A DNA stretch of 64,000 nucleotides, taken from contig NQOV01000002.1 in the NCBI GenBank assembly GCA_002632265.1, forward strand, positions 1 through 64,000. Reading direction: 5' to 3'. The notes beneath the pieces are model-generated. The model was not told the origin of the DNA. It saw only the letters and a list, made by a program, of their open reading frames with translations, and ran no database searches. How positions within the stretch are numbered: position 1 is the stretch's first letter; each line of letters starts with the position of its first letter. Positions 4,377 through 52,647 of this stretch are shown one piece after another. A program made the translations under genes and the position numbers. The stretch comes from Rhodospirillaceae bacterium MC! (GTDB lineage Bacteria; Pseudomonadota; Alphaproteobacteria; MC1).

Positions 4377-5213
4377 ATGGAAACTAGACAAAGTATTCAT
4401 AGCGATCACGCTAAAAGACTAGATACACAAGGCTTAAGAAAAGAATTTTTACAAGAAAATATCTTTACTAAAGGCGAATTAACAATGACATATAGTCATA
4501 TTGATCGTATCGTTTTTGGTGGAATTATGCCATCTGGGAAAAAAATAGAATTGTCTGCTGATTTAGGTAAAGCATTCGGCGTAGACTTCTTTTTACAACG
4601 TCGTGAAATTGGTATTATTAATATTGGTTCTGCAGGTAAAATCACAGTAGACGGCACAACTTACAATCTAAATAATCAAGATGCTTTATACATCGGCATG
4701 GGAGCGAAAGAGGTTTCTTTTGAATCTGACAATGCTCAAGATCCTGCGAAATTCTATTATAATTCTGCTCCTGCACATCAAAATTATCCGAATAAATTGG
4801 TTACTTTAGCGGATTCTGTAAAAGCTCATTTGGGTGATGTGGAAAGTTCAAACAAAAGAACAATTAATAAATACTTCGTACCTGATGTATTACCTACTTG
4901 TCAATTGGTAATGGGTATGACCATTCTAGAAGACAATTGCCTATGGAATACAATGCCTTGCCATACTCATGAGCGTCGTATGGAAGTTTACTTATACTTC
5001 GATATGGATAAGGATACAAACGTATTTCATTACATGGGTAAACCTGATGAAACTCGCCATTTAGTTGTTCGTAACGAGCAAGCGGTAATTTCTCCAAGTT
5101 GGTCAATTCATTCGGGCGTTGGAACAAAATCATACACATTCATTTGGGGTATGGTAGGCGAAAATCAGACATTCGATGACATGGATCATGTAGCTATGCC
5201 AGATGTTTATTAA
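4377..5213 (+). CDS. kduI: 5-dehydro-4-deoxy-D-glucuronate isomerase KduI
   Basis: KduI converts 5-keto-4-deoxyuronate, released by breakdown of pectin-type or other uronate polysaccharides, into 3-deoxy-D-glycero-2,5-hexodiulosonate. The protein has 278 residues, the usual length. The cupin metal-binding residues are in place: His196 and His198 in CHTHERR, Glu203, and His245 in WSIHSG, matching the ligand positions known for the E. coli enzyme. The start has a good AAGGAAAA ribosome site. kduD follows 129 bases downstream on the same strand and catalyses the next step, so the two form an operon ended by a strong terminator. No KDG kinase or aldolase gene is in the window. Confidence 0.95.
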
Positions 5214-9122: not shown

Positions 9123-10616
9123 ATGTATAAGAAAAAAAATTTAGTCTTCTCAACAATATTTATTGTACTTTTGTCATTTGCTTTTAATAACAACGCTATG
9201 GCACAAGACCCCGTTGATACGTCTACAGATCAAACTCTTGACACTTCTATAGATAAGAAAGCCGACACTTCTACAGATAAGAAAGCCGACACTTCTCCAG
9301 ATGATAAAGCCGACACTTCTACAGACGAGAAAGCCGACACTTCTACAGACGAGAAAGCCGACACTTCTACAGACGAGAAAGCCGACACTTCTACAGATAA
9401 GAAAGCTGACACTTCTACAGACGAGAAAGCCGACACTTCTACAGATGAGAAAGCCGACACTTCTCCAGATGATAAAGCCGACACTTCTACAGACGAGAAA
9501 GCCGACACTTCTACAGATAAGAAAGCCGACACTTCTACAGACGAGAAAGCTGACACTTCTACAGACGAGAAAGCCGACACTTCTACAGACGAGAAAGCCG
9601 ACACTTCTACAGACGAGAAAGCTGACACTTCTACAGACGAGAAAGCCGACACTTCTACAGACGAGAAAGCCGACACTTCTACAGATGAGAAAGCTGACAC
9701 TTCTACAGATGAGAAAGCCGACACTTCTACAGATGATAAAGCCGATACTTCTACAGACGAGAAAGCCGACACTTCTACAGATAAGAAAGCCGATACTTCT
9801 ACAGATGAGAAAGCCGACACTTCTACAGATGAGAAAGCCGATACCAAAGTAGCGAAGACCACAGAAAATCAGATTCCTGAACATCGTCAAAATAACGACA
9901 TAACAGGGAAATCTGCGGTTGTGGATCTTTTACCTAGTACAAGTAAGTATGTCGGTAAGTTTAACATTGCCATATATCAAATGTTCTTACATCCTTTTGG
10001 TAAGGCTTACGGCTTATTTGTGCCAAAGATTGTCGACAAGAAAATCAATGATATCGTAGATTGGTCATACGGTCCATATTACATGGTAAATGATATTTTA
10101 CGATTGGATATGAACAAATTAGCCAACAATGCAGGAGCGTTTTTAATTAACGGTACTGTAGGGGTGCTTGGGATATTTGATATTTCATCTAACTTTAATA
10201 TTAATCAGTCCAAAGACGATCTTTTAGGCACGTTCCACACATGGGGATTAAATGATACTTACTATATTCAATTGCCATTGGTCGGCCCACAAACGGAATT
10301 AACCTTAGTGTCAATGATCGGCGGAGTTCTACTAAAACCTACCACATGGTTAACAGGTGCTAACATTTTCATCCCAAGTGCTAGCGTGGTAGATAAAGTA
10401 TTATATACTCGAAATGTGGCAAAATACGGAACTCTTGCCTATAACACATCCAACAGTTTAGACGTACTTAAGAACATCCCAGGAGATAAAAGTACCCTAA
10501 TGCGTGATGCGTGGTTATCAATGCACGATCTATACTTAGACGGAGATTCTGCCTATGATCTAGATCTTGGCGATAGTGATGGATCTGACGATGAATTCGG
10601 CGAAAGCGATTTCTAA
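9123..10616 (+). CDS. mlaA: MlaA/VacJ-like phospholipid-transport protein with long N-terminal 8-residue repeat
   Basis: The 497-residue protein has three parts. Residues 1-28 are a signal peptide ending AMA, a signal peptidase I type site. Residues ~30-240 are about 25 copies of the octapeptide DTSTDEKA. The C-terminal ~250 residues match MlaA: FLINGTVGVLGIFD, LLGTFHTWGL and YIQLPLVGPQ align with the family's conserved FLINSTVG.LFDVA, .LG.WG and LPLLGPS segments. MlaA removes mislocalised phospholipids from the outer leaflet of the outer membrane together with the MlaBCDEF transporter; no other mla gene is in the window. Unlike E. coli MlaA, there is no lipobox cysteine, so it would not be lipidated. 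The start has only a weak ribosome site. A long acidic tail (DLDLGDSDGSDDEFGESDF) ends the protein. Confidence 0.8.
   Translation: MYKKKNLVFSTIFIVLLSFAFNNNAMAQDPVDTSTDQTLDTSIDKKADTSTDKKADTSPDDKADTSTDEKADTSTDEKADTSTDEKADTSTDKKADTSTDEKADTSTDEKADTSPDDKADTSTDEKADTSTDKKADTSTDEKADTSTDEKADTSTDEKADTSTDEKADTSTDEKADTSTDEKADTSTDEKADTSTDEKADTSTDDKADTSTDEKADTSTDKKADTSTDEKADTSTDEKADTKVAKTTENQIPEHRQNNDITGKSAVVDLLPSTSKYVGKFNIAIYQMFLHPFGKAYGLFVPKIVDKKINDIVDWSYGPYYMVNDILRLDMNKLANNAGAFLINGTVGVLGIFDISSNFNINQSKDDLLGTFHTWGLNDTYYIQLPLVGPQTELTLVSMIGGVLLKPTTWLTGANIFIPSASVVDKVLYTRNVAKYGTLAYNTSNSLDVLKNIPGDKSTLMRDAWLSMHDLYLDGDSAYDLDLGDSDGSDDEFGESDF
9217..9845 (+). repeat. 24-bp tandem repeat (about 25 copies) inside the mlaA-like gene
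   Basis: The unit ACTTCTACAGACGAGAAAGC plus CGAC encodes TSTDEKAD. Copies differ mostly at silent or conservative positions (GAC/GAT, GAG/AAG, TCTACA/TCTCCA). The unit has no stop in any frame on either strand, so it produces long spurious open frames on both strands. Confidence 0.97.
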
Positions 10617-10721: not shown

Positions 10722-10774
10722 CATGGATCTATCCATTAAGGCCAACTATTTAGGCCTTAATGGATAGATTCATG
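10722..10774. repeat. 22-bp palindrome with GGCC arms
   Basis: ATCTATCCATTAAGGCC (10727-10743) and its perfect complement (10753-10769) enclose a 9-nt loop; five more outer pairs include one G-T pair. This resembles the GGCCTAA palindromes elsewhere in the window. It is followed by an AT-rich stretch with a TATAAT (10855-10860) that may serve ftsE. Confidence 0.7.
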
Positions 10775-16272: not shown

Positions 16273-16854
16273 ATGATAAACGCAATTAGTGGTTCATCAA
16301 GTGTAGCTTATGCACAAATGATCAAAAACCAAGCGAATCAAGCTCAACAAGCTGATTCAGATGATACAACAGAAGATACAAGCTCAACCGAGCAACCACC
16401 AGCAGGTGGGCAACCACCAGTAGGCGGACAGCCACCAGCAGGTGGGCAACCACCAGCAGGTGGGCAACCACCAGTAGGCGGACAGCCACCAGCAGGCGGA
16501 CAGCCACCAGCAGGCGGGAAACCTCCCGTAGGCGGACAGCCACCAGCAGGCGGTAAACCTCCCGTAAGCTTAACATCTTCTGATGATAGCGATAGCACTG
16601 ATGATAGTGATGACACTACTTCAACTAGTTCTACAGCTTCAACAGTTGCCAGTGCTTTCAGTGCATTAGTTAATCTTAATGAGTACACTTCAACATCTGA
16701 CGATTCTAGTTCTGATGACGACGATGACGACGACGATGATGATGATGATTCTAGTTCAACTAGTTCTACAAGTTCTAGCACTAGTACATCTTCTACATCA
16801 TCAACCGATGTTACCGACGTTCTTAAACTAATCGACGACGGTTTAGAAGCGTAA
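16273..16854 (+). CDS. Pro/Gly-repeat low-complexity protein
   Basis: A 193-residue protein without a recognisable family. Residues 1-40 are Ser/Gln-rich (MINAISGSSSVAYAQMI...). Residues ~42-98 are nine copies of PPAGGQ/PPVGGQ. The C-terminal half is Ser/Asp/Thr-rich with a run of 11 Asp and ends in a short helical segment DVLKLIDDGLEA. No signal peptide is seen. The GGAGAT ribosome site at good spacing supports translation. It is likely disordered; a surface or structural role would be a guess. Confidence 0.65.
   Translation: MINAISGSSSVAYAQMIKNQANQAQQADSDDTTEDTSSTEQPPAGGQPPVGGQPPAGGQPPAGGQPPVGGQPPAGGQPPAGGKPPVGGQPPAGGKPPVSLTSSDDSDSTDDSDDTTSTSSTASTVASAFSALVNLNEYTSTSDDSSSDDDDDDDDDDDDSSSTSSTSSSTSTSSTSSTDVTDVLKLIDDGLEA
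16396..16567 (+). repeat. 18-bp tandem repeat encoding PPAGGQ
   Basis: Nine full units of CCACCAGCAGGTGGGCAA and variants, in frame within the gene at 16273-16854. Confidence 0.95.
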
Positions 16855-20959: not shown

Positions 20960-21036
20960 CATTTTAACAGACTCTCCGAACACAACAATGTTACACAAAG
21001 TTTGTTCGATCCCACGTTAGGGATGGAGATAGGTAA
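20960..21036 (+). repeat. 3'-end repeat element, copy 1 (core and one degenerate 33-mer)
   Basis: It starts about 40 bases after the DUF3572 stop and reads in its direction: a degenerate unit AACAGACTCTCCGAACAC, then the core GTTACACAAAGTTTGTTCGATC. An inverted counterpart lies at 24007-24177. Confidence 0.65.
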
Positions 21037-21129
21037 TTGTCTATAACATCGGTATGTTTAATGCTGATGTGTGTGATACTGTTGTGTTTTATACTATTGT
21101 TTTTTATATTTTATTGATTATTATATTTT

Positions 21130-21271: not shown

Positions 21272-21367
21272 GAACAATATAAAACAGCCATATTTTATAT
21301 TATTGTTCTAGTTATCATGAATCTCTCTTTACAGGCTTAAATATTAGGCCTGTAAAGAGAGATTCAT
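21272..21367. repeat. Two adjacent palindromes
   Basis: First hairpin: GAACAATATAAAA (21272-21284) with 21293-21308. Second: a 20-bp perfect stem at 21317-21336 and 21348-21367 (ATGAATCTCTCTTTACAGGC) around a GGC..TAAATATTA..GGCC centre. The second is a member of the GGCCTAA palindrome family. Confidence 0.75.
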
Positions 21368-21497
21368 AACAGCACGCAAGCAAAATCCTAAATAAAAAAG
21401 ATCACAATACATATTATATCTTCTACTAGAAATAAAAACCCATAAAATATCCTTATAATCACCCATTTTTTCATCTATTAGCATCTTCTTTTCAAGC

Positions 21498-23593: not shown

Positions 23594-23678
23594 TTCCATA
23601 TACCTTTCTTCTATCTATAAATTTTAATAATAGATTCTAAATAAAAATATCCTTTTTATAGGGTTTCCATTTCTTACA

Positions 23679-23834
23679 GTTGCAGGCCGAAACTAAGTAT
23701 AATATAAGTATATATATTACTAATTTAAGTATATTATAATAACTTAACGACATATCTAAAAACAGTTATCTTATTAAACTGTATTTAAAGTAGTGTTAAA
23801 TATATCTATATTATATCTACTTTAGGCCAGCAAC
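23679..23834 (+). repeat. MITE-like AT-rich element, copy 2, with terminal inverted repeats
   Basis: 156 bp bounded by GTTGCAGGCC (23679-23688) and GGCCAGCAAC (23825-23834). The interior matches the reverse complement of 21130-21256. The same arms without the interior form the perfect palindrome at 40138-40184, so that short palindrome looks like an internally deleted form. A hairpin with ATATAAAACAGCC follows at about 23836-23885, as it does next to copy 1. Confidence 0.7.
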
Positions 23835-24006
23835 TATAATAACAAACATTATATAAAACAGCCCTTTTTATTTGTTATATCCATATAATATAATATTATA
23901 TCTTCTTTCATAAATAACAACACTGATTATGTATCAGCACAATAATAAATAAAAACCAAATAAATATTAAACCCAATAGCGTTACACACACCGATAGTAT
24001 ACTCAC

Positions 24007-24177
24007 TTACCTATCCCCGCCCCTTAGTGTGGGATCGAACAAGCTTTGTGTAACAGTGTTGTGTTCGAACTGTCTGACAAGACATCTAGCCAAATAATGT
24101 GAATGCCTGTCAAGACTTCTATCTAAAAAATGCAACACTCTATCAAGAGTTATGCTCGGATAGAGTGAGTATTTTTT
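24007..24177 (-). repeat. 3'-end repeat element, copy 2 (33-mers and core)
   Basis: Read on the minus strand, directly after the flavoprotein stop: a hairpin (24125-24144 with 24159-24177, containing CTCTATCCGAGC) that matches a 33-mer unit, then GTCTTGACAGGC and, 33 nt later, GTCTTGTCAGAC, then the core TTACACAAAGCTTGTTCGATC and a match to copy 1 up to GATAGGTAA. The first hairpin ends in T residues and may terminate transcription. Confidence 0.7.
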
Positions 24178-34912: not shown

Positions 34913-35022
34913 AAGGGGTGGGAAAAAGTGCTTAGTCAGTGTTCTTAAGCGAGGCGACTGTACTACACGCCTACACGAGCCTCGCTTAAGGACGCTGAAT
35001 AAGTGCTTTTTCACGCCCCTTT
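34913..35022 (-). repeat. Long hairpin element after nrdB (GTGAAAAAGCACTT family, full copy)
   Basis: Two ~43-nt arms (34913-34955 and 34979-35022) pair with several G-T pairs around a 23-nt loop. On the minus strand the first arm begins AAAGGGGCGTGAAAAAGCAC, 42 bases after the nrdB stop. The size and base composition suggest a palindromic repeat acting as a strong 3'-end structure. Confidence 0.8.
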
Positions 35023-36189: not shown

Positions 36190-36229
36190 ATGCCTTAAGG
36201 ACGCTAAAATGAGTGCTTTTTCACGCCCC
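36190..36229 (-). repeat. Partial copy of the GTGAAAAAGCACTT hairpin between nrdA and nrdB
   Basis: Starting two bases after the nrdA stop on the minus strand, GGGGCGTGAAAAAGCACTCA and the following AGCGTCCTTAAGGC match one arm of the nrdB element. The other arm is missing, so it should terminate poorly and could allow read-through into nrdB. Confidence 0.65.
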
Positions 36230-36231
36230 AG

Positions 36232-38031
36232 TTACTGACAAGATAAGCATTCTTCGTAATTAACGGCGTGAGCGTATAATGAATCTGGTGAGTCGTGTTT
36301 TTCATTGCCGATGGTTGCTTTAGAACTACCTGCGAATCCTGCACGCATGATAGATTTTGAACGACAGTAATATAAGGATTTCATGCCACTTTTCCACGCT
36401 ATCCAATGGAGCATGTGAAGATCCCATTTATTAACGTCGGAACTTAGATACAGGTTAACCGATTGAGATTGGCAAATATACGGCGTTCTATCGCTGGCGA
36501 ATTCTAGAACCCAACGTTGATCGATTTCAAAAGCGGTTTTGAATATTTCCTTTTCGTAATCGGATAATTGTGGCAAATGTTGGACAGATCCGTCATGTTC
36601 TAGAATGGAATGCCATATGGTATCATTATCGATATTTTTTTCTTGTAAAAGTCTTCTTAGGGCTTTATTTTTCACTGTGAATGATCCGTCTAGGGTTTTG
36701 TGAGTGTAAACATTCGCAGGAATCGGCTCAATACAAGCACTAGCACCACCACAGATCACAGAAATGGACGCTGTGGGAGCTACGGATAATTTATGGCTAA
36801 AGCGTTCTTTAGATCCCACTTCTTCGGCATCCAAGCATGGGCCACGTTCTTCGCCGAGTTTTAGCGATGCCTCGTCGGCTTTCGCTTTCAAATGCTTGAA
36901 TAAATTCATGTTAATGGATTTAGCCATAGGGCTTTCAAAGGGTATCTTTTTCGCTTGTAATAGGGAATGGAATCCCATTAAGCCCAGACCTACAGAGCGT
37001 TCACGTTGTGCGGAATATATGGCTTTTGACATACTATCAGGAGCGGAATCTATGAATTGTTGGAGTACATTATCTAGCATGCGTAAGATATCTTCAACGA
37101 ATCTTTCATTATTTTTCCACTGGTCATAGGTTTCGGCGTTAACTGATGAAAGACAACACACGGCGGTTCTATCGTTGCCTTTGTGGTCTTTACCTGTGGG
37201 CAGAACGATTTCGGCACAGAGATTAGATGAAGTAACTTTCAAGCCCAATTTCTTTTGATGAGCTGATAAATTATCATTTACCGTATCACTAAAAATAAGA
37301 TAAGGTTCACCTGTTTGCATGCGTGTATCAAGGATCTTTTGCCACAATTCACGAGCTGATACGCTTTTTAAGGTCTTTTTAGTTTTGGGGCTAATTAGAT
37401 CGTAATCCGTATCATTTTTAACCGCTTCCATGAATTTATTATCGATGTTAACACCATGATGAAGATTTAAGGCCTTACGGTTGAAATCGCCAGAGGCTTT
37501 ACGCAATTCGATAAACTCTTCGATTTCAGGATGAAAAATATCCAAATACACCGCTGCCGAACCACGACGCAAAGATCCTTGAGAAATGGCTAAAGTCATG
37601 GAATCCATAACCTTAATAAAAGGGACGATTCCCGAAGTAGATCCTGCTTTTGCGATACTTTCGCCCATGGAACGCACTCCGCCCCAATATGAGCCGATCC
37701 CACCGCCGTTACTGGCAAGGGCAACATTTTCGTTCCAGATGACAACGATATCTTGCAAGCTATCATCTACGCTATTAATAAAGCAGGAAATGGGCAAGCC
37801 ACGATTGGCCCCGCCATTGGAAAGAATCGGCGTAGATGGCATGAACCATAATTTAGACATATAGTCATATAAGCGTTGTGCGTGATCTTGATCATCGGCA
37901 AAGGCGTTAGCAACTCGTGAGAACATATCTTGAAAGCGTTCGCCCTGTAAAAGATAGCGTTCCATTAGGGTTTTTTTTCCGAAATCTGTTAACAGATTAT
38001 CACGTTCTAGATCTATTTGTATATCGTACAT
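36232..38031 (-). CDS. nrdA: Ribonucleoside-diphosphate reductase alpha subunit (class I)
   Basis: The 599-residue catalytic subunit has the active-site segment TSSNLCAEIVLPTG, the radical-site region NLHHGVNIDNKFMEAV..., the PTASISVICGGASACIEPI motif and the C-terminal redox cysteines ECLSCQ. It is shorter than the E. coli protein (761) because the N-terminal ATP-cone is absent, so dATP inhibition through a cone is not expected; short forms occur in other alphaproteobacteria. The N terminus begins directly with the ten-stranded barrel precursor helices (LTDFGKKTLMERYLLQGE). NrdR boxes lie upstream. Confidence 0.95.
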   Translation of the reverse strand: MYDIQIDLERDNLLTDFGKKTLMERYLLQGERFQDMFSRVANAFADDQDHAQRLYDYMSKLWFMPSTPILSNGGANRGLPISCFINSVDDSLQDIVVIWNENVALASNGGGIGSYWGGVRSMGESIAKAGSTSGIVPFIKVMDSMTLAISQGSLRRGSAAVYLDIFHPEIEEFIELRKASGDFNRKALNLHHGVNIDNKFMEAVKNDTDYDLISPKTKKTLKSVSARELWQKILDTRMQTGEPYLIFSDTVNDNLSAHQKKLGLKVTSSNLCAEIVLPTGKDHKGNDRTAVCCLSSVNAETYDQWKNNERFVEDILRMLDNVLQQFIDSAPDSMSKAIYSAQRERSVGLGLMGFHSLLQAKKIPFESPMAKSINMNLFKHLKAKADEASLKLGEERGPCLDAEEVGSKERFSHKLSVAPTASISVICGGASACIEPIPANVYTHKTLDGSFTVKNKALRRLLQEKNIDNDTIWHSILEHDGSVQHLPQLSDYEKEIFKTAFEIDQRWVLEFASDRTPYICQSQSVNLYLSSDVNKWDLHMLHWIAWKSGMKSLYYCRSKSIMRAGFAGSSKATIGNEKHDSPDSLYAHAVNYEECLSCQ

Positions 38032-39923: not shown

Positions 39924-40090
39924 GTTGGATATCTTGACAGACGGTCGCACTTTTTAGTTGGATATCTTGACAGACGGTCGTCCTATTCTGGCGGAAGTCT
40001 TGACAGACGGTCGCTCTACCCGAGCAGGAGTCTTGCTATACGGGCCGAACATAGCGATGTTGTACAAAGTTTGTTCGATCACAAGTTAGG
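39924..40090 (+). repeat. 3'-end repeat element, copy 3 (four 33-mers and core)
   Basis: It begins 46 bases after the deacetylase stop, in the same direction. CTTGACAGACGGTCG recurs three times at 33-nt spacing, then a diverged fourth unit, then the core TGTACAAAGTTTGTTCGATC. Each unit can form a hairpin GTCT-TGAC-AGAC and a second one; here the second is GCTC-TACCC-GAGC (40013-40025). No spacer-like unique sequences are present, so it is not a CRISPR array. Confidence 0.8.
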
Positions 40091-40137
40091 CTAGAATCTT
40101 GTTTATATTTTCAATTGATAGAGTTTTTTGTGTTAAG

Positions 40138-40184
40138 GGTTTTATAGTTGCTGGCCTAATATTTAGGCCAGCAACTATAAAACC
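40138..40184. repeat. Perfect 22-bp palindrome of the GGCCTAA family
   Basis: 40138-40159 and 40163-40184 are perfectly complementary, with a 3-nt loop; the arms contain GTTGCTGGCCTAA. The outer arms equal the ends of the MITE-like element at 23679-23834. Confidence 0.92.
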
Positions 40185-40266
40185 TTATCCCATGAAAAAA
40201 TTATTCTGTGTTCTGTGCCGTGTCTTATGTATAAAAGATTCTATTATTACAATTCACGGCCTAAAT

Positions 40267-47803: not shown

Positions 47804-47915
47804 GACATTGATATGTCTTGACAGACGGTCGCTCTATTCGGGCGGAAGTCTTGCCAGACGGGCCGAAGATAGCGATGTTGCACAAAACTTGTTCGATCGC
47901 AAGTTAAACTAGGAT
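47804..47915 (+). repeat. 3'-end repeat element, copy 4 (33-mers and core)
   Basis: It begins 35 bases after the lipoprotein stop in the same direction: GTCTTGACAT, GTCTTGACAGAC, GTCTTGCCAGAC units, a second hairpin GCTC-TATTC-GGGC (47831-47843, with one U-G pair), then the core GTTGCACAAAACTTGTTCGATC, where AACTTGTTCGATCGCAAGTT forms a 6-bp stem. Confidence 0.8.
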
Positions 47916-47998
47916 CTTGTTCATATTTTAATATGAGAGAATTATTTTGTGTTAAAGATTTTAATGTTTTGGTCTTTTAGTATTTTGTCATCTTTTCA

Positions 47999-48025
47999 TT
48001 ACTGGCCTAAATATTAGGCCAGTAA
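47999..48025. repeat. 12-bp palindrome of the GGCCTAA family
   Basis: TTACTGGCCTAA, loop ATA, TTAGGCCAGTAA. It follows repeat element copy 4, as in copies 3 and 5. An ATATAAAACCAG stretch like those near the MITE copies follows. Confidence 0.85.
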
Positions 48026-48197
48026 CTATAAATAATAGAAATTATATAAAACCAGTATTTTTTTATTGTAAAGTAGTTAATTTTATGTTAATCTCATCAA
48101 GATCGTAAAAGAATGGTTCTTTTACATTGTTTACACATACTTTTAATATACATTACAATAATACACCTATGTATATTTTCATGAAAGGAAAATACAA

Positions 48198-49610: not shown

Positions 49611-49653
49611 TTTTATCATTACTGGCCTAAATATTAGGCCAGTAATGATAAAA
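49611..49653. repeat. Perfect 20-bp palindrome of the GGCCTAA family
   Basis: TTTTATCATTACTGGCCTAA, loop ATA, and the exact complement. It belongs to the repeat element downstream of cckA, read on the minus strand. Confidence 0.92.
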
Positions 49654-49668
49654 CCCTTAACACACAAA

Positions 49669-49858
49669 AACTCTTCCAGTTGAAAACACCAAACAAGATC
49701 CTAGCCTAACTTGTGATCGAACAAATTTTGTTCGGCCCGTCTGGCAAGACTTCTGCCCGAATAGGGCGACTGTCTGTCAAGACCCCTGCTCGGGCAGAGC
49801 GACCGTCTGGCAAGACTTCCGCCCGAATAGGGCAACCGTCTGTTAAGACATCTACAAA
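49669..49858 (-). repeat. 3'-end repeat element, copy 5 (33-mers and core)
   Basis: On the minus strand it starts 20 bases after the cckA stop. Second-hairpin sequences stand exactly 33 nt apart at 49821-49833 and 49755-49767 (stem GCCC/GGGC) and at 49788-49800 (stem GCTC/GAGC), alternating with GTCTTGCCAGAC-type hairpins. The core TTTGTTCGATCACAAGTTAG follows. Nine C (49870-49878) stand between the array and the cckA stop. Confidence 0.82.
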
Positions 49859-52490: not shown

Positions 52491-52647
52491 GTAAGGGGTG
52501 TGAAAAATGAGTGAAAACGTTTTTCTTGCCCTAAAGCCAAGGGCTGGGAAAAGTGCTTAGCCAGTGTTCTTAAGCATTGCGTGGCGTATCCACCACTATC
52601 GCAAAATGCTTCAAGGACGCTGGATGAGTGCTTTTTCACATCCCTTT
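52491..52647. repeat. Long, interrupted hairpin of the GTGAAAAAGCACTT family upstream of cckA
   Basis: The outer arms AAGGGGTGTGAAAAATGAGTG and AGTGCTTTTTCACATCCCTTT pair; inside, a second arm pair (TTAGCCAGTGTTCTTAAGCAT with ATGCTTCAAGGACGCTGGA) is preceded by an extra ~45 bp. Unlike other copies it lies before a gene (cckA), not after one. Confidence 0.7.

Follow-up and report, generated by a model that had tools for sequence, protein, structure and literature searches.

The 33-nt repeats that follow five genes in the window (the whole 64-kb stretch of DNA analysed here) belong to a real, apparently undescribed, genome-wide family of modular repeats, which is most likely a polar DNA repeat family at gene ends; its main rival is a sense-strand function exerted through sequence recognition. 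The fuller account favoured here, that of a lineage-specific, BOX-like DNA repeat, modular and interspersed along the 3′ flanks of genes, with slippage-grown arrays and DNA-level matching of palindrome arms, is considered somewhat probable. The genome is alphaproteobacterial (2.05 Mb, 19 contigs, assembly 95.5% complete), and the window, with a mean GC content of ~36%, covers the initial 64 kb of its contig 1; no 16S rRNA gene was found in a whole-genome search of the assembly.

The initial annotation had described five copies downstream of genes for a DUF3572 protein, a flavoprotein, a deacetylase, a beta-propeller lipoprotein and CckA. The gene names are borne out, the products being a DUF3572 protein, an NMO-type flavoprotein, a polysaccharide deacetylase, a BNR-repeat protein and a PAS/HATPase/response-regulator hybrid kinase. 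The copies are borne out too: within the window, the unit core GTCTTGMCAGACGGTCG is present nine times, where 0.03 would be expected, and five tail cores lie at the places described. The copies and their palindromes are as follows:

10722-10774, no strand: palindrome without an element copy nearby (core 10740-10756, arms about 18 bp)
20962-21063, plus strand: copy 1, decayed half-unit and tail (profile R1, E=4e-24), in a tandem gap, 42 nt past the stop codon of the DUF3572 gene (gene named by Pfam)
21311-21373, no strand: GGCCTAA-family palindrome beyond the tail of copy 1 (core 21334-21350, outer arms about 23 bp)
23673-23840, no strand: long MITE-like GGCC palindrome beyond the tail of copy 2 (144 nt with its two GGCC motifs counted, arms about 12 nt)
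23981-24083, minus strand: copy 2, tail (E=1.3e-21), in a convergent gap
24084-24149, minus strand: copy 2, decayed 33-nt units (sequence matches)
39931-40029, plus strand: copy 3, three 33-nt units (unit-core matches)
40030-40130, plus strand: copy 3, tail (E=2.6e-20), in a convergent gap
40136-40186, no strand: GGCCTAA palindrome by copy 3 (outer arms about 17 bp)
47815-47847, plus strand: copy 4, one 33-nt unit (unit-core match), in a tandem gap
47848-47951, plus strand: copy 4, tail (E=3e-20)
47993-48032, no strand: GGCCTAA palindrome beyond the tail of copy 4
49611-49653, no strand: GGCCTAA palindrome beyond the tail of copy 5 (outer arms 13 bp)
49669-49750, minus strand: copy 5, short-form tail CGAACAAAATTTGTTCG (E=8.6e-12), in a convergent gap
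49751-49849, minus strand: copy 5, three 33-nt units, following the cckA-like hybrid kinase gene

In all five copies the order runs from units to tail, away from the same-strand gene. Other parts of that description hold in part: 33-nt units are present in copies 3-5, but copy 1 has no complete unit and copy 2 has two to three decayed ones. Palindromes do accompany copies 3-5, but begin about 65-105 nt past the TTGTTCGATC core and not directly after it, and the modules reported near copies 1 and 2 are confirmed as a GGCCTAA-family palindrome and the long MITE-like form, respectively. A co-oriented gene lies upstream of every copy, but only copies 1 and 4 are informative on strand, because the genes flanking copies 2, 3 and 5 converge, so that such a copy would follow a co-oriented gene whichever way it pointed. 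The window also carries another family of repeats (AAGGACGCTGAATAAGTGCTTTTTCACGCCCC, paired with an inverted repeat, at 34913-35021, 36198-36232 and 52541-52647) and two tandem repeats within open reading frames, one of 24 nt (8 codons, 25 copies, 9240-9841, within ORF 9123-10616) and one of 18 nt (6 codons, 9 copies, 16392-16553, within ORF 16273-16854).

Across the genome, the element consists of 33-nt units that share the core TCTTGACAGAC; between 1 and about 20 of them stand in tandem, followed by a single tail. Allowing two mismatches, GTCTTGMCAGACGGTCG is matched 85 times and a reversed-pattern control not at all. Conservation is 94% over positions 2-12 of the unit and 74% over the rest, and this unevenness could mean that the core is a selected binding site. 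Arrays are homogenised (84% unit identity within arrays vs 70% between them) and mostly keep a 33-nt period, with one array at 34 and one at 35 nt; together these features fit what is expected of slippage. The 35-nt array (C18:5675-5977, locus L126 at 4776-5078) retains the TCTTGACAGAC core, has an unrelated spacer and carries its own dyad, CGCTA/TAGCG. The tail is ~45 nt long and occurs in a long form, CGAACATAGCGATGTTGCACAAAGTTTGTTCGATC, and a short form with an internal deletion (CGAACAAAATTTGTTCG, CAAACATAGCATGTTTG). A tail sequence profile (R1) gave 57 matches in this genome at a cut-off of E<=1e-3, where E-values are rough and some of the weakest copies (E near 1e-3) may have matched by chance. 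The profile matched nothing in 384 further genomes from this class, a comparison set without a close relative; the analysis of the family covers one assembled genome. Exact 17-mer matches in public genomes and viral contigs, considered as possible family members elsewhere, were isolated, without arrays or tails. Rfam returned no family at the gathering score, only sub-threshold matches to the palindrome, mostly of miRNA-hairpin type. In a check for terminal inverted repeats, flank complementarity was only slightly higher than in mismatched pairs (7.99 vs 7.55, p=0.017). Degenerate ~15-nt tandem repeats resembling GTATAATATCGCTAT were seen downstream of the tail at locus L118 and some others, and related 15-nt copies are expanded within the tail at C7:15101. 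At two contig ends (L110 at the end of C5, L120 at the start of C14), near-identical arrays share downstream sequence, a likeness that suggests either that the segment was duplicated or that the assembly broke at the repeat.

The association of the element with gene 3′ ends is confirmed genome-wide, and with it the earlier claim of a fixed orientation downstream of genes. Of the 62 mapped copies, convergent gaps hold 38 and divergent gaps none; tandem gaps hold 18 on the strand shared by both genes and three on the opposite strand. The other three are at contig ends (two) or in a spurious ORF running through the array (one). Background gaps, from fetched regions picked for carrying repeats, number 58 convergent, 152 tandem and 58 divergent, with genes called by a codon-score caller on 715 kb around the repeats and hence approximate. 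Against this background, both the lack of divergent copies (p=5e-6) and the convergent excess (p=6e-10) stand out, and the tandem copies favour the same strand by 18:3 (p=0.0015). Convergent gaps by themselves are uninformative on strand preference, but in them the unit side is closer to its own gene in 34 of 38 cases (34:4, p=6e-7). When only the 40 strongest copies are kept, the tandem ratio is 9:3 and the unit side is nearer in 24 of 26 convergent gaps. Facing elements were counted in four convergent gaps, and a fifth (C6:1700-2008) is arranged alike on reading; in four of the five, the C18 gap being the exception, the facing elements are separated by a GGCC palindrome or by its long form. 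Recognisable intrinsic terminators are found at 64 of 282 gene ends; 12 of 58 copies sit behind the terminator of the upstream gene, some beginning 3-50 nt past it, and a hairpin with a U-tract occurs in or after the element in only 13 of 58 copies, several of these with poor hairpins. Neither the element as an intrinsic terminator nor its insertion behind terminators was retained, since the rates are not above those of gene ends generally.

The palindrome GGCCTAAATATTAGGCC occurs 61 times genome-wide at up to two mismatches, and a slightly looser pattern identifies 63 intergenic copies in the fetched regions (32 convergent, 31 tandem, none divergent). A full palindrome lies within 350 nt downstream of 25 of the 62 elements and a half motif (random rate 4%) in 15 more, that is, on the tail side of 40/62 and on the unit side of none, indicating that the natural unit is a composite of units, tail, spacer and palindrome. 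The outer arms mostly reach about 12 bp or more. Their sequences vary from copy to copy, and the two arms of any one copy match each other; for the majority of positions, complementarity is 83-98% within a copy vs 32-92% across copies. Among the modules, compensatory evolution is real only in this palindrome, whose arms show Watson-Crick covariation: there are 185 double-change cells vs 51.5 in shuffles and the covariation score is 0.434 vs 0.116, neither value being reached in 500 shuffles. Arm mispairs include 17 G-U and 21 A-C, a balance that points to DNA-level rather than RNA-level matching. G-U pairs would be favoured if an RNA helix were under selection, but not if arms were re-matched by template switching during replication, a documented process that can make and maintain perfect hairpins (PMC8794818).

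The units and tails behave differently from what the initial annotation had proposed, namely two hairpins per unit with compensating stem changes, kept by selection on RNA structure at mRNA 3′ ends. Over 65 distinct units, 76.3% of the proposed pairs are kept vs 76.5% in shuffles, and the covariation score of 0.157 vs 0.153 was equalled or exceeded by 148 of 500 shuffles. RNAalifold predicted no pairs for the units or for 31 tails. The minimum free energy of copy 3 (160 nt) is no better than that of shuffles on the two strands (z -0.14 and -0.06), and mean z over 57 tails and 65 units is near zero and slightly stronger antisense. Unit stem mispairs show no preference for G-U (57, vs 71 A-C), the outer pair of hairpin 1 is broken in 31/65 units, and hairpin 2 is lost in the 19-unit C7 array and in the GGATA variants of C11. 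Compensating changes come down to a single base pair, which turns from CG to UA in some of the arrays, and they fail family-wide. An outer stem around the units (C-rich left, G-rich right), also considered, is strong at C12:43342 and weak across the family. These results make an RNA double hairpin under selection highly improbable, even though the GC-type units, which include the best copies of the window, pair in 96% of cells with double changes at position 19-27 only, and other small hairpins are present in the spacers of several array types and absent from others.

A reading that dispenses with the fold, in which the tail and the conserved TCTTGACAGAC units work at the 3′ ends of mRNAs once transcribed, so that copies are kept only in sense orientation, putatively through protein or RNA binding, Rho-linked termination or 3′-end protection, is unlikely but deserves to be taken seriously. 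It draws on the orientation and closeness to the stop codon, on mirrored pairs in convergent gaps with one element per gene, on the uneven conservation along the unit and on the scarcity of intrinsic terminators at gene ends. It is weakened by the absence of covariation or extra folding in units and tails, by the 12/58 copies behind a terminator, which would rarely be transcribed with the upstream gene, by the small number of copies (only about 57 in the whole genome) and by a unit number that is free to vary. It is doubtful that the palindrome is instead the functional part, as a bidirectional 3′-end hairpin or a DNA site, with units and tail as passengers. Strong arm covariation and the absence of all 63 copies from divergent gaps are in keeping with this, but the palindrome has no U-tract, its T-rich 5′ and A-rich 3′ arms are the reverse of an intrinsic terminator, G-U pairs are not in excess and many gene ends are devoid of it. 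In a further reading, a gene-end module of one alphaproteobacterial lineage would give each gene its oriented array and tail, mirrored in convergent gaps about a shared covarying DNA palindrome, and would mark the boundary of converging transcription units via sequence-specific binding and not an RNA fold; this is quite unlikely.

Targeted insertion by a machinery with gene-end polarity, comparable to integron attC sites, group IIC introns or REP/RAYT systems, could explain the orientation, the copies starting shortly past a terminator and the GTTAGGC within some tails. However, copies behind terminators are no commoner than terminators at gene ends, and searches of this 95.5% complete assembly found no RAYT (Y1_Tnp) gene and no reverse transcriptase, and for integron integrase only a single tyrosine-recombinase gene, well below the cut-off. 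Insertion of this kind is thus considered very unlikely. A coding tandem repeat (33 nt keeps the frame) was rejected because the period is 34 or 35 nt in other arrays and because arrays lie after stop codons, and a CRISPR-like array because units are contiguous, without spacers.

REP/BIME sequences, too, are partly palindromic, extragenic and located at the 3′ ends of genes. The present family shares this position and these parts, but its unit hairpins are not conserved. MITEs and small palindromic repeats resemble the long GGCC form (about 144 nt between arms), whereas the short form is centred on only 5 nt, with arms that are specific to each copy and match themselves, and no transposase is linked. 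The closest architecture is that of BOX elements of Streptococcus pneumoniae (boxA-boxB(n)-boxC), which are modular, vary in the number of middle units and are over-represented between convergent genes (PMC3049150). Variable tandem modules, convergent-gap enrichment and clustering with other repeat families are common to both, but the present family has no boxA-like 5′ module, reaches about 20 units, is never found in divergent gaps, has a fixed orientation to the nearest gene and lacks the consensus RNA fold predicted for BOX. The likeness is one of architecture, no sequence relation to BOX being known. Quasipalindrome hairpins attributed to template switching likewise have perfect stems re-matched via compensatory multi-base changes (PMC8794818), but the palindrome described here belongs to a dispersed family confined to gene 3′ sides, and its mechanism is inferred.

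The BOX-like DNA repeat thus remains the favoured reading. In the direction of the upstream gene, a copy comprises units (33-35 nt, 1 to about 20 of them), a tail, an AT/GT-rich spacer, and the GGCCTAA palindrome or its long MITE-like form. Copies may have spread as non-autonomous elements and survived only where no promoter was disrupted, while arrays would grow through replication slippage or unequal exchange and palindrome arms could be re-matched through template switching during replication. BOX elements have been interpreted as parasitic elements tolerated downstream of CDSs (PMC3049150). Such tolerance accounts for the avoidance of divergent gaps, but not for the 18:3 and 34:4 orientation, which might instead reflect a polarity of insertion or copying at gene ends rather than a conserved RNA fold. 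The reading is also weakened by the negative searches for a RAYT, a reverse transcriptase and an integron integrase, and by the uneven conservation along the unit.

Altogether, this family provides a clean case in which position and orientation suggest an RNA function, while covariation, folding and G-U tests contradict it, and in which an adjoining palindrome covaries strongly without RNA-like G-U pairs. It lends itself to tests of how processes at the DNA level can by themselves mimic compensatory evolution, and of why small repeats settle one-way at gene 3′ ends.
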